Origin: a virus | Virus record (IMG/VR): IMGVR_UViG_3300047476_000201 | Coordinates: 1-35,384 of that record | Length of the DNA stretch: 35,384 nt | Direction: 5' to 3' (one strand) | Shown: positions 2,238 through 20,785 of the stretch, in pieces | How positions within the stretch are numbered: the stretch's first letter is position 1 | Layout of the letters: the number at the start of each line of letters is the position of its first letter | Translations under genes and position numbers: made by a program | Notes under the pieces: generated by a model | Seen by the model: only the letters and a program-made list of their open reading frames with translations | Databases searched by the model: none | Told to the model about the DNA's origin: nothing

Positions 2238-2245
2238 TATTTATT
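2238..2245 (-). promoter_or_regulatory. T4-like late promoter (AATAAATA)
   Basis: Minus-strand AATAAATA differs from the T4 late consensus TATAAATA at one base. It overlaps the stop of the 907-residue gene (2244-2246) and predicts a start near 2232, giving a ~13-nt leader that carries the AAGGA ribosome site of the 303-residue fibre gene. Confidence 0.55.
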
Positions 2246-4967
2246 ATACGTTATAGCGGTAGTTTGTAAATTTTAGGAACTGTGCATTTGCATTTCCTAA
2301 GGTACTGTCGATTAAAAATCTATCGATTTCGTAGTCAATTTGTCCAAAATCAAATCCGCTGTTTTTAATGTTTTCCAATACATCTTTTCCCTGTCCAGGC
2401 TTGCAATAGCACAGAGGAATAGCATTTATAAATCCTGTGGCAGGAGTCTTACTGGTTTGTGGAGTCTTCATCCATAAAGGTAAAAACTCATTTTCAATAG
2501 AAATAGCACGTATAGTACTGCCATCTTCATTGTTAACACTTAGGTTTCTAAGATTCTTTCTTATGTTTATAATACTACTTGGATAAGCAAACTCTTGATC
2601 TCGTCCGCTGGTAAAGATAGCAGTGTTATCAGCAGTGTACGGATCTTTAACAGGTCTAAAGCGATCAGGTTCATCCTTGTTTAGTCTTGCTTGATTTTCT
2701 GGTGTAGATAATAGTCCTGAAGCCGCACTGGCTCTTGCCTGGTTAACCAATGTTCTAGAATTATTATTTGGCAACTTAATTTTTAAATTAGTTGATTTTT
2801 TATTAATTTCATATTCGTCTAGAACTTCTATGTAAATTACTTCGTAGACAATATCATTAGAACCTTGCTCTTTGGCCACGGCTCTTTTAACTTCGCCCAT
2901 TTTAAATCTTTTACGTTTAATATTTCTGTTAAGAACAGGAATGTAGTCAGCAATACTTCTAGTTTCAATACCTGCGTACACTAACATTCTTAGATCGTTC
3001 TGAACGCCAAATCCTGGATCGTTCAAACGATAGATTTTTTCGGGAGTAAAAATTGTAGCATCTGTAATAAAGTTAGAAAAGTAATTTCTTTTTTCTATTT
3101 TTTGATAAGGTTGTGTATAGATATTACTGTAAAGTTTATCTGTGCTCTCTTCGATATTTAAAGTAAATTCTCCAATAACAGCACTGTACTTGAACTGGTC
3201 AACGGCCAATACAGAAAATTTATAACTGCGGTCGTATGTTTGTGTTCCACCGTCGAATGTAGTTGTTCCTGTGTCAAACAAAGTTAAGCCTGGAGAACCA
3301 TCGACGGAAAACTGCGGAACCTTACCAATAATTTCACCTACTGAGTTTAATGTTAAGCCAGGCGGCAACTTACTTGGTGTACCATCGGCGTTGGTTGTCA
3401 GCAGTTGATAAGATAAAACTGCTCGGGGAACAGTAGTTTCTGCTTGTACGCTCAATGTACTAACGAAGTTAGCACGTATACCACCTAAGTTTCTTGGAGT
3501 TATAAAGTTAATAACACTGTCAACTTCACCTAGTACTTTGAGATCGAATGTTTTAGAACTGACGTTTGTGTTAAATTCTAATGTACTTTGAATGTATGTT
3601 TTAGTTAAAACAGTAGGATTGTCCTGACTATCTCTAGCAGGTACGTTAATTTTTAATGGCGTGTCTAATCTTAATAGAGCATATTGTCCACCAACAACAG
3701 TTTGACTTGTATAAGATTCTATTCTATACTGAAAGTTACCAATTCTTAAATAGTCGTTGACTAACAAATCAACGTCTGCTTGAGGTAGCGGATTTATCAG
3801 CAAATAGTTTTGTCCGTATGATGCGTTAACTCCAACTACTACTGCAACTTCTGCTTCTGTATAACCTGTGGCATCATATTTGATGGCATTGATGGTAAAT
3901 TTATAATCTCTAGTAATTGCAGGCTGATAAGGAATGTATCCAAAGATTTCTCCATTATTAGAATCTAAGAATAATCCTTCAGGAAGTAGACTAGGTGTGT
4001 TATCGGGATTAGTGTCGGCAAGTTCGTAGACTAACGGACTTAATGCCGGATTAGGATCGAAGGCATCTAAGAGAATTGTTACATAGTTGTTGGCTCGTTT
4101 AATTCCAAGATTACTTGCACTTAGCCAGTACGCACCTCTAAGGTAAGTAGCATCTGCGGTAAATGTACCGTCGCCAACTTGTAAAATAGTATTGTCAGAA
4201 CGTAGGAAATCATCGCCCACAACATAAATGCTAAATTTACGTTTGATAATGCTAGTACCGTCTGTAACACTGACAAAGAATTGATATCTACGATTTAACT
4301 TTCTTGGAGCCTTAACTAGATCAATGAAGTCGAATACAACGCTGTCATATAAGAATGTGTCCATACCAGTTCTAGGTTCAATACCGAAATCAAATGGATT
4401 ACTGTCGTACTGGTTAGTATCAAAATGTCCATTACCTGCGGAAACATCTAATGCTAGAATGGGATCAACTTTTCCGCTGATTCTACCTGCGGCGCTTAGT
4501 GTTAGTCCGGGAGGTAATTCGCCATCACCGTCTTGAATAAAAAATTCTAAAGAATCGCCGGCTTTTATATCTTGATCGATGGCTCTTAAGTCAAACTCAA
4601 TAAATGTATTATCTAAAACAAACGCTTGTCCATTAGGATTAATACTAAGTTCGCCTTCTGCGGTAATCCAAACAGGATCGTCTGGACCTTGTATAGTCAT
4701 AGTAAAAGTTCGGTCACTGACTTGCCCGTTGAGTGAAGCACGGATAACAAAAGTGTACTGTGTTTCCACAGCAACTTCAAATGGCGTGCCTATGATTTTA
4801 TTCCCAACGATTCTCAACCCGCCAGGAAGGCTACCAGAAATTACAGTAAATGTAACACCAGTTAAATTACCAGTTAATGGTTGAGTGGGAAGATTATAGG
4901 AAAGGCTTATACGTTCTTGGTAAGTTCCAAGACTGCTTCCGGTTTTTAGTGTCCAAACATTTAACAT
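2244..4967 (-). CDS. Large structural protein with He_PIG/Ig-like repeats
   Basis: This 907-residue protein contains at least four copies of the putative-Ig (He_PIG/cadherin-like) core L-P-x-G-L-x-(L/I)-x-x-x-G-x-I-x-G: SLPGGLRIVGNKIIGTP near residue 46, ELPPGLTLSAAGRISGKV near 151, LLPEGLFLDSNNGEIFGYIP near 330 and KLPPGLTLNSVGEIIGKVP near 540. Between them are beta-rich Asp/Asn spacers. The C-terminal ~250 residues are more basic and lack repeats. Such domains decorate phage tails and capsids and bind carbohydrate or protein surfaces. No signal peptide is present. The ribosome site (GAGGAA) lies in the downstream arm of an 11-bp inverted repeat with a late promoter in its loop. Its exact place in the virion is unknown. 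Confidence 0.75.
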   Translation of the reverse strand: MLNVWTLKTGSSLGTYQERISLSYNLPTQPLTGNLTGVTFTVISGSLPGGLRIVGNKIIGTPFEVAVETQYTFVIRASLNGQVSDRTFTMTIQGPDDPVWITAEGELSINPNGQAFVLDNTFIEFDLRAIDQDIKAGDSLEFFIQDGDGELPPGLTLSAAGRISGKVDPILALDVSAGNGHFDTNQYDSNPFDFGIEPRTGMDTFLYDSVVFDFIDLVKAPRKLNRRYQFFVSVTDGTSIIKRKFSIYVVGDDFLRSDNTILQVGDGTFTADATYLRGAYWLSASNLGIKRANNYVTILLDAFDPNPALSPLVYELADTNPDNTPSLLPEGLFLDSNNGEIFGYIPYQPAITRDYKFTINAIKYDATGYTEAEVAVVVGVNASYGQNYLLINPLPQADVDLLVNDYLRIGNFQYRIESYTSQTVVGGQYALLRLDTPLKINVPARDSQDNPTVLTKTYIQSTLEFNTNVSSKTFDLKVLGEVDSVINFITPRNLGGIRANFVSTLSVQAETTVPRAVLSYQLLTTNADGTPSKLPPGLTLNSVGEIIGKVPQFSVDGSPGLTLFDTGTTTFDGGTQTYDRSYKFSVLAVDQFKYSAVIGEFTLNIEESTDKLYSNIYTQPYQKIEKRNYFSNFITDATIFTPEKIYRLNDPGFGVQNDLRMLVYAGIETRSIADYIPVLNRNIKRKRFKMGEVKRAVAKEQGSNDIVYEVIYIEVLDEYEINKKSTNLKIKLPNNNSRTLVNQARASAASGLLSTPENQARLNKDEPDRFRPVKDPYTADNTAIFTSGRDQEFAYPSSIINIRKNLRNLSVNNEDGSTIRAISIENEFLPLWMKTPQTSKTPATGFINAIPLCYCKPGQGKDVLENIKNSGFDFGQIDYEIDRFLIDSTLGNANAQFLKFTNYRYNV

Positions 4968-4968
4968 T

Positions 4969-5008
4969 TCTACGGTTCCTCGAAGTATTTATCGCACGGA
5001 ACCGTAGA
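4969..5008 (-). promoter_or_regulatory. Late promoter inside the loop of an 11-bp inverted repeat covering the RBS
   Basis: Arms 4969-4979 and 4998-5008 are perfectly complementary (11 bp, core CTACGGTTCC/GGAACCGTAG) with an 18-nt loop. On the minus strand the loop holds GATAAATACTT (octamer 4986-4993), a one-mismatch late promoter. The predicted start is near 4980, just before the downstream arm, which carries the AGGA ribosome site 9 nt before ATG 4967. Read-through RNA from the 393-residue gene can form the hairpin and hide the ribosome site; RNA begun at the late promoter cannot. A terminator role is less likely because no T-run follows. Confidence 0.65.
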
Positions 5009-5021
5009 CTAGAGTTGGCTA

Positions 5022-6203
5022 TTAAATATTGGCAGCACCTGATATTGAAATATTATACCATCCGCCCTGAAGTCTAACTTGCAATCCAGGTAAAGGTAAT
5101 GGATTTGCTAGTTCGTCTGTGGGTTGATAGTTGTATATAATTGTACCGTCATCGATAAATGGTGTTAATGCTGTACGATCTGCATTACCAATAGCACGTA
5201 GATTAATAGCAGTTACACCTAGTACACCCTTAGACGTATATTTTAATACATCGTTGTTGCTGGCTGTTGGGTTATTAGTTACAAAGAATGCGTTAGTTAC
5301 GTTTTCACCGCTACCTAATACAAATGTTGTTGGAACAACACCTGCAGGAGCATCTGTTTGATCTTCTGCAATAAATCCAAATCCGCCGGCAAAGCCTTGA
5401 ACGGCATCACCGCCACCTACTTTATTGTTATAACTTCTGTAAAAGAATCCACCAACTTTATCATTTTGTTCAATGTTCAATGGAGAAGCAAGTGTTCCGC
5501 GATAAATCACATAACTGTGTGTACCAGGAAGTGTGATGTTACCGTCGCCGTCTAAAGTAATTCTACCGTAATGTACCCATGGTTGCTGTTCGTATTGTGT
5601 AAACGCAAATGGTTGATCCTCTGAACCAAGAGTAAAGTTTACAAACTCGTCGGACGATGTAAAGTTTAATCCGTTTCCGTTAATAACAACGCTAGAGTCT
5701 TCGTCAGCAAGTGTAATAGAATCGCCATTAAATGAGTTTGTTGTTGCATTAACTAGAACTTGTGTACTGTCTGAACTTAGAACGTTACCGACTAAGTCTG
5801 ATTCTACAGTTACCGCTTGTACAGTTCCTGAACTAACAACATTACCGCTGACGTTAATGTTACCAGTGTTTGTAATAGATCCGGTCGAAACAATAGCAAC
5901 TCCACCGTCTCCGGTGACTGTAATCTTTTTAGTTGTAATGTTTCCGACGTTATTAATGTTTCCCGTGAACGCTATGTTTCCTGAACCAATAATATCGTTA
6001 TTGTTTAAGTTAATATCGCCTTCTACGTTACCAGAAAGCACTGCGTTTTGTCCAACAGCAACACCGCCTAGTGTAATGCCGTCGCCAACATAGATAGGAT
6101 CAACGTCAGCAGTTGTATAGTCGGTTACAAAAACTAGTTCACCCACAAGTGGAGTGTACAGTAGTCTCTGTGCGTTAGTTCCTCTTCTAATTTGTAAAGC
6201 CAT
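5022..6203 (-). CDS. Tail-fibre/adhesin protein with Mtd-like N-terminus
   Basis: This 393-residue protein opens with MALQIRRGTNAQR...PLVGELVFVTDY, followed by a YVGDG motif. This is the short domain found at the N-terminus of many phage fibres and in the Bordetella phage major tropism determinant. A long region of short repeats follows (G-x-I-x-N/x-G-N-I pattern, residues ~55-130), typical of a fibrous triple-stranded beta shaft. The C-terminus (GLQVRLQGGWYNISISGAANI) looks like a compact tip. A GGAG ribosome site lies upstream. No late octamer is seen immediately ahead, so it is probably transcribed with the 212-residue gene. No reverse transcriptase or template repeat accompanies it, so diversity generation is not suggested. 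Confidence 0.75.
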   Translation of the reverse strand: MALQIRRGTNAQRLLYTPLVGELVFVTDYTTADVDPIYVGDGITLGGVAVGQNAVLSGNVEGDINLNNNDIIGSGNIAFTGNINNVGNITTKKITVTGDGGVAIVSTGSITNTGNINVSGNVVSSGTVQAVTVESDLVGNVLSSDSTQVLVNATTNSFNGDSITLADEDSSVVINGNGLNFTSSDEFVNFTLGSEDQPFAFTQYEQQPWVHYGRITLDGDGNITLPGTHSYVIYRGTLASPLNIEQNDKVGGFFYRSYNNKVGGGDAVQGFAGGFGFIAEDQTDAPAGVVPTTFVLGSGENVTNAFFVTNNPTASNNDVLKYTSKGVLGVTAINLRAIGNADRTALTPFIDDGTIIYNYQPTDELANPLPLPGLQVRLQGGWYNISISGAANI

Positions 6204-6220
6204 TTAAATATTCTCCAACT

Positions 6221-6859
6221 TTATAGTGTTCCTGCGTCAATCGACAAATCTGTGGGCGATATAATTGTACCTAGATCTAGACCAACATAACTCAGCAAAT
6301 ATTGAAATGCGCTAGTATACTGATTATCTAGAGTACCAAAGTCAAACGTATTTATCGTCCTGTTTAAGTCCTGAATGGACACCCCGTCCACTCTTGCTGG
6401 CATATAGTTCGGAAGTCCTGCATTTGGCTGAACGCCTACTATATTACCTGCACCAATAATGTAGTCTGGTTGTGAAGGGAAGACCCGTCCCATTAAATTA
6501 CCATTGAATGACCCGCTAAACATACTAGCAGTCATTGTGTTTGCTTCTACACTACCTGTTGCTGTAAGACTACCTACTTCTAAGTCCTTGCCCACAAAAT
6601 CAGTGCTGATAACAATCTTATCACCGTCTAGTGTTAGTGCCAGTTTATCGTCTGAATCTAGGCTTTTAAATTGTAGGGTATTTTCAACTTTTTGTTTAAA
6701 AATACCCACACCACCACCGACGTTTGCGGCCACTGTACTAGCATCAATGCTGGTTTCGAGTTCAACAAAGTTCTCGTTTACTTTCTGAAACGCGGTACGG
6801 AGATCGTCTCCGGTACCGTCGTTTGCAATGCTGCCGATATCTATTAAAGTAATGTTCAT
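6221..6859 (-). CDS. Short fibre protein with NDGTGD N-terminal module
   Basis: Starting at the ATG at 6857-6859, this is a 212-residue protein: MNITLIDIGSIANDGTGDDL, then RTAFQKVNENFVELE. The same NDGTGDxxRxxFxKxNENFxEL module begins the neighbouring giant protein, so the two probably share an assembly partner. The remainder is beta-rich with small residues. A start 28 codons upstream is open, but it would sit inside the giant gene and move the IDIG motif away from the N-terminus, so I prefer 6859. A late-like CATAAATA octamer ends 5 nt before this ATG and no Shine-Dalgarno is visible. Translation may be leaderless, or coupled to the giant gene, whose stop is 13 nt upstream. Confidence 0.75.
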   Translation of the reverse strand: MNITLIDIGSIANDGTGDDLRTAFQKVNENFVELETSIDASTVAANVGGGVGIFKQKVENTLQFKSLDSDDKLALTLDGDKIVISTDFVGKDLEVGSLTATGSVEANTMTASMFSGSFNGNLMGRVFPSQPDYIIGAGNIVGVQPNAGLPNYMPARVDGVSIQDLNRTINTFDFGTLDNQYTSAFQYLLSYVGLDLGTIISPTDLSIDAGTL

Positions 6860-6864
6860 AGTAA

Positions 6865-6872
6865 TATTTATG
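6865..6872 (-). promoter_or_regulatory. Late-promoter-like octamer (CATAAATA) abutting a start codon
   Basis: Minus-strand CATAAATA is one mismatch from TATAAATA, placed between the stop of the giant gene and ATG 6859. T4 geometry (start ~6 nt after the last A) would put +1 at the A of the ATG, giving a leaderless late mRNA. Chance occurrence in AT-rich DNA is possible. Confidence 0.4.
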
Positions 6873-15447: not shown

Positions 15448-15696
15448 ATGTTCGGATTTATTAAGAAACTATTTGGCACTGCACCTAAGGCAGAAACGAC
15501 AGAGGCTCCATATAAAGTTGAAGCACCTGTAGTTGACCTAGCAGATATTGCTATTGCTCAAAAACCTGCTCCAGTAGCAGAGGCTCCTAAAGAAGCGCCA
15601 AAAGCAGAAGCCAAAAAAGAACCAGCCAAGAAGCCACGTAAACCACGTGCTCCAAAGGCTGGCGGTGCTAAAGCGCCTAAAAAAACTAAGAAGTAA
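15448..15696 (+). CDS. Lys/Pro/Ala-rich basic protein with amphipathic N-terminus
   Basis: The 82 residues fall into three parts: an amphipathic N-terminal helix (MFGFIKKLFGTAPK), an acidic/hydrophobic linker (VEAPVVDLADIAIA), and a tail of ~45 residues made almost wholly of Lys, Pro, Ala and Arg (PKAEAKKEPAKKPRKPRAPK). The tail resembles histone H1 or bacterial HU/H1-like C-termini, so DNA or RNA binding is likely; the first helix could touch a membrane. The strong AAGGAGGA ribosome site and late promoter suggest abundant late expression, perhaps in DNA packaging or the virion interior (inference). Its 3' end overlaps the UvdE stop by 11 nt, convergently. Confidence 0.7.
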   Translation: MFGFIKKLFGTAPKAETTEAPYKVEAPVVDLADIAIAQKPAPVAEAPKEAPKAEAKKEPAKKPRKPRAPKAGGAKAPKKTKK

Positions 15697-20734: not shown

Positions 20735-20742
20735 TATTTATA
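20735..20742 (-). promoter_or_regulatory. Exact T4 late promoter (TATAAATA)
   Basis: Minus-strand TATAAATAC is an exact match to the T4 late consensus. Standard geometry gives a start near 20729, two bases before ATG 20727, so the fibre mRNA would be nearly leaderless. It faces away from the plus-strand late promoter at 20778-20785. Confidence 0.7.
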
Positions 20743-20777: not shown

Positions 20778-20785
20778 CATAAATA
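20778..20785 (+). promoter_or_regulatory. Late promoter (CATAAATA) for the plus-strand fibre genes
   Basis: CATAAATATTG is one mismatch from the T4 late consensus. The predicted start near 20791 gives a ~19-nt leader with AGGA before ATG 20810. Together with 20735-20742 it forms a divergent late promoter pair 35 bp apart. Confidence 0.6.

Follow-up and report, generated by a model that had tools for sequence, protein, structure and literature searches.

In bacteriophage T4, a handful of genes is known to be kept silent on early or middle RNA by hairpins at their translation start. In e, soc, 49 and I-TevI, the ribosome site is masked in RNA made earlier and becomes accessible in late RNA (PMC3014915, PMC2988022), and the hairpin of gene e lowers lysozyme synthesis 100-fold (PMC3014915). 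Gene 26 was also cited as hairpin-controlled (PMC2988022). In soc, 49 and I-TevI, as well as in I-TevII, I-TevIII, segB and Aeh1 mobE, an adjacent late promoter frees the sequestered site. The genes of the soc, 49 and I-TevI set lie in early or middle units, and the control of I-TevI additionally protects intron splicing. A calibration scan of 150 kb of T4 ranked gene e first (AATACCTTC-TATAAATA-ctta-GGAGGTATT-ATG). As soc and 49 were not strongly picked out, such a contiguous-stem scan undercounts these structures. Arms complementary to the ribosome site and lying upstream of or touching the late octamer were additionally seen at T4 genes 53, 9, 26 and 51 (NC_000866 77349(+), 87187(+), 116448-116457).

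A hairpin that appears to belong to the type of T4 e, soc, 49 and I-TevI lies in the window, i.e. the whole stretch of 35,384 nucleotides analysed here, directly before a gene on the minus strand (2244..4967) that encodes a tail-region protein of 907 amino acids with a He_PIG Ig-like domain (Pfam PF05345). On this coding strand, the order is TCTACGGTTCC-GTGC-GATAAATA-CTTCGA-GGAACCGTAGA-A-ATG. The upstream (5') arm (TCTACGGTTCC, 4998..5008) and the downstream (3') arm (GGAACCGTAGA, 4969..4979) are 11 nt each and 100% complementary, and a T4-type late-promoter octamer (GATAAATA, 4986..4993) lies in the 18-nt loop, past the upstream arm and ahead of the ribosome site. The Shine-Dalgarno sequence AGGA (4977..4980) is found 9 nt 5' of the start codon (4965..4967), with its GGA in the 3' arm and thus within a stable predicted helix, as in the T4 locks. 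The original prediction had described precisely this, an 11-bp perfect inverted repeat with the octamer in its loop and the ribosome site of the 907-residue gene in its downstream arm. Its coordinates proved exact to the base, the GGA is indeed paired there, and the open reading frames at 2244-4967(-) and 5022-6203(-) agree with the genes of 907 and 393 residues that it had named.

Among perfect inverted repeats with loops of 3-30 nt, this is the only one in the window to reach 11 bp; Markov random sequences of matched dinucleotide composition contain a mean of 0.33 such repeats. The mRNA hairpin alone has a predicted folding energy of -20.2 kcal/mol, and a folding z of -3.2 was obtained for the 101-nt region (computed on the complementary strand). 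As in T4 gene e, for which the precedent of silencing by such a hairpin, invoked by the original prediction together with soc, is documented (PMC3014915, PMC2988022), the upstream arm lies ahead of the late octamer, the Shine-Dalgarno sequence sits in the 3' arm just 5' of the ATG, and the late RNA lacks the upstream arm (here by prediction). The stem has 9 bp in T4 e and 11 bp here. Gene e, however, encodes lysozyme, is reached by early read-through RNA, has two late promoters and shows a measured 100-fold effect, whereas the present hairpin precedes a tail-region gene behind a late unit, has its arm 4 nt back from the octamer and is known from sequence alone.

The late octamer of T4 occupies positions -13 to -6 (PMC1524935), and transcription at the loop octamer is therefore predicted to start at 4980 (minus strand), the sixth base past it. 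The predicted late RNA starts AGGAACCGUAGAAAUG, and the upstream arm and the loop are absent from it save one base. The cost of opening the ribosome site was calculated as 9.7 kcal/mol on the read-through RNA and 0.1 kcal/mol on the late RNA (ViennaRNA, 37 C, for RNA alone without ribosomes or proteins). Folding of both RNAs, which had been suggested as a check, hence returned a site that is costly to open on one and about free on the other. With its sequence, pairing, conservation and accessibility as observed and calculated here, the element probably acts as a promoter-coupled translational lock. By analogy with T4, from which the start at 4980, the block of translation and its timing are inferred, RNA arriving from upstream would carry both arms, the hairpin would bury the Shine-Dalgarno sequence and the 907-aa gene would stay untranslated. 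The phage late RNA polymerase would start at the loop octamer, and its RNA, whose first base is the A that immediately precedes the downstream arm, would be unable to form the hairpin and would be translated from a 13-nt leader.

A different question is which RNA would have to be silenced. The genes on the minus strand follow each other in the order 2742-aa gene (15101-6873), octamer at 6872, gp9/10-like gene, 393-aa gene, hairpin, 907-aa gene, octamer at 2245 (AATAAATA) and 303-aa gene. The late octamer CATAAATA (6865..6872) lies 5 nt 5' of the ATG (6859) of the gp9/10-like baseplate gene (6221..6859; 212 aa from the ATG after the octamer), which is apparently leaderless. The 393-aa gene (5022..6203), with a weak Mtd_N-like N-terminus, is preceded by a GGAG ribosome site of its own and lacks a late octamer immediately 5' of its start, so that RNA started at 6872 should read on into the 907-aa gene. 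Another octamer, at 6356, was considered as a promoter and set aside, as it is probably mere coding sequence conserved along with the protein. RNA that runs on through the 393-aa and 907-aa genes thus probably originates at the octamer at 6872 and, because the genes behind this octamer are structural, would probably itself be late.

On the minus strand, the closest perfect sigma70-type promoter (TTGACA, 17 nt with TG, TATAAT; 16924-16896) lies about 12 kb upstream, with a terminator-like stem at 15581 in between. It precedes a small open reading frame and an endonuclease gene and is probably an early promoter. Early read-through into the 907-aa gene is therefore doubtful and also not needed. 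The T4-style lock of the original prediction holds up in its mechanism, but the early read-through that it implied is doubtful, since the nearest upstream unit, behind the octamer at 6872, looks late. In many other clusters, an open reading frame of about 235-245 codons directly precedes the homologue of the 907-aa gene, and the 393-aa Mtd_N-like gene therefore looks like an insertion in the lineage of the window.

The best segment of the gene is 74-82% identical in close relatives of the locus (L001/L015, L014 and L016), which keep the N-terminus MLNVWTL of the protein, and the octamer is kept in all of them. The window and L001 share 96-98% identity over the 45 columns of the hairpin block, compared with an average of 68% for the 5.8-kb neighbourhood. 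Compensatory arm changes, the point on which the original prediction had made itself depend, were indeed found. In the four close sequences (window, L001, L014 and L016) all 11 pairs form in each (44/44 pair cells), one pair varying between G-C, G-U and A-U, including a double change from G-C to A-U, and another between C-G and U-G. Slid alignments of the same sequences kept 32-50% of the pair cells. Within-cluster covariation was not significant against shuffles (261/500), a control without power at n=4, and taken alone the compensated pairing in these four sequences is only suggestive. The G-U pairs form in the sense RNA only, which favours RNA pairing over DNA symmetry.

More distant homologues were collected by profile searches of IMG/VR, which returned at least about 200 loci as a sample. 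These loci contain 211 distinct octamer-plus-start sites, 60 of which, from 16 clusters, lie before homologues of the 907-aa gene. An anchored stem, defined as at least 5 pairs that begin at the ribosome-site GGA and end 0-4 nt before the octamer, was present at 32 of the 52 family sites having GGA. Among 114 sites ahead of other genes of the sampled loci, 2 had one. The Shine-Dalgarno variant and the octamer-side arm covary (GGAGT/ACTCC, GGAATT/AATTCC, GGAATC/GATTCC, GGATA/TATCC, GGAACC/GGTTCC). When arms were exchanged between clusters, with one representative per cluster, the mean stem fell from 4.94 observed to 3.65 swapped, and 0 of 4000 swaps reached the observed value; with the TCC/GGA core fixed, the means were 5.33 and 3.93 and the observed value was reached by a fraction of 0.0015. 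Two virus contigs (268 and 237 kb) each contain the pattern TCCGATAAATA...GGA a single time, in both cases at the 907-aa homologue. The difference in opening cost between read-through and late RNA had a median of 3.4 kcal/mol in the family and 0.5 kcal/mol at other late genes, the rows being related and the p value of this comparison nominal. The hairpin was found across the main clades of the family tree, in which the own cluster of the window is placed via a long branch. Unrelated arm sequences thus rebuild the same architecture in distant relatives, in line with the lock as first proposed. Together with the geometry of T4 e, this comparative evidence supports a ribosome site that would be hidden on read-through RNA and free on late RNA.

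Other explanations were weighed against this lock. Classical translational-coupling hairpins conceal a downstream ribosome site, are opened by upstream ribosomes, not by an RNA start within the hairpin, and have no promoter in the loop. If the present hairpin were of that kind, the ribosome ending the upstream gene would melt it and the 907-aa protein would be made in step with its neighbour. In many homologues, the upstream stop lies within or beside the arm (at -5 to +2 nt, counted from the end of the stop to the arm: L089, L082, L022, L142-L154, L103); a ribosome terminating there would cover the arm and could open the hairpin. The stop codon of the 393-aa gene, however, ends 13 nt ahead of the upstream arm, and 11-14 nt across the window and three close relatives, which is at or beyond the usual ribosome edge (footprint) and makes coupling less likely here. 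Coupling alone also does not account for a late promoter that lies in the loop and whose start falls at the 3' arm, and this reading is considered unlikely.

The dyad symmetry around the promoter and the conservation of the 11-bp arms in four relatives could also suggest a DNA-level operator, in which a protein controlling the late promoter would bind two half-sites separated by 18 bp. This is highly improbable and was rejected as the main reading, since arm sequences show no relation from one cluster to the next, although they still pair, and since the departures from symmetry are G-U pairs, functional in the sense RNA only. Moreover, the Shine-Dalgarno sequence lies under the downstream arm each time, and other promoters have no such arm. 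A strong intergenic stem of this stability might equally be expected of an intrinsic terminator or an mRNA-processing hairpin between two genes, for which there is little room. No U-tract follows the stem on either strand (A-ATG on minus, CTAGAG on plus), for which reason a terminator was rejected; the stem is absent from the terminator scan, and the ribosome site is covered in cluster after cluster. Chance, finally, could yield short stems of 4-5 bp if a promoter-side TTCC before the octamer happened to match a GGAA ribosome site. TCC touches the octamer at 31 of the 60 family sites but at 0 of the 114 sites before other genes in the sampled loci, the stems run past the core beyond the swapped controls, and the stem of the window has 11 bp and is placed 4 nt back from the octamer; coincidence is largely refuted by the swap test and its probability is close to nil.

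The promoter-coupled lock preferred here does not take the form of an anchored hairpin in all homologues. The 60 family sites split into 32 with an anchored stem, 8 with leaderless spacing, 8 of the L023 cluster and 12 with none of these. At L025, L033, L037, L162, L164, L175, L179 and L187 there is no ribosome site and the ATG lies 6 nt past the octamer; by the T4 rule, the mRNA of these eight sites would begin one base before the AUG and looks leaderless. In the sampled loci, the octamer-to-ATG distance is bimodal, with 5-6 nt at 21 of 188 sites, none at 8-12 nt and the remainder mostly at 16-25 nt. Scans of whole records mostly agree, as spacings of 5-6 nt against reversed controls numbered 9/3, 11/2, 14/3, 8/1 and 1/1 in five virus contigs and 9/1 in Pelagibacter phage Mosig, with 2/0 in T4, from which this class is almost missing. 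Examples of an octamer followed by an ATG 5-6 nt on, with no ribosome site, are window 6872-6857(-), L001:3331-3346, L025:2791-2807 and Mosig MT647606 24962-24976(-). By the T4 rule, such short-spaced late mRNAs are predicted to start at or 1 nt before the AUG, i.e. to be leaderless. In the window, TATAAATA at 20742(-) is followed 7 nt on by the ATG of a tail-fibre-like gene without a ribosome site, a leaderless-looking late start that forms a divergent pair with CATAAATA at 20778(+). No leaderless late genes of T4-like phages were found in the literature searched, which is not proof that none have been published.

In L023, L158, L168, L171, L177 and L178, ctatac or ctgtac, then GGAGAA or GGAGAG, then cgtgtag or cgtatag lie between the octamer and the ATG (plus-strand sites at L023:1283, L158:3965, L168:897, L171:3965 and L177:3965). 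Judged by eye, this cluster may possibly form a hairpin whose loop holds the ribosome site and whose upstream arm would be missing from the late RNA; L165, of the same cluster, has a 10-bp stem that stops 4 nt short of the octamer. No clear device by the anchored criterion was seen at L017, L020, L085, L093, L098, L101, L112, L121, L174, L183, L199 and L202, the last of which has a 9-bp stem elsewhere, and the homologues L056 and L077 have no octamer.

The exact pattern of the hairpin had no further copy in IMG/VR, and a search with GATAAATACTTCGAGGA returned the contig of L001, unrelated and apparently coding sites, and nothing else. No relatives were recovered by a single-sequence search with the 907-aa protein or by searching cultured phages at the DNA and protein levels; for the family, the search for homologues of known structure was negative. 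The conservation of the lock, with its arms rebuilt in different sequences, strongly supports, on comparative grounds, selection for the lock itself, and the homologues that look leaderless suggest another way of achieving this. A tail gene locked to its own late promoter by two interchangeable devices, either the hairpin or the lack of a ribosome site with a start at or 1 nt before the AUG, is conceivable, and is put forward tentatively. If this were true, translation would depend on where the RNA starts, even late read-through RNA would be silenced, and the dose of the gene would be decoupled from its operon rather than merely delayed. Across a broad group of uncultured marine T4-like phages, the lock is kept in front of one tail gene. 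Because the upstream RNA looks late, the lock may uncouple late genes from one another, a point on which the T4 cases as reviewed are silent.
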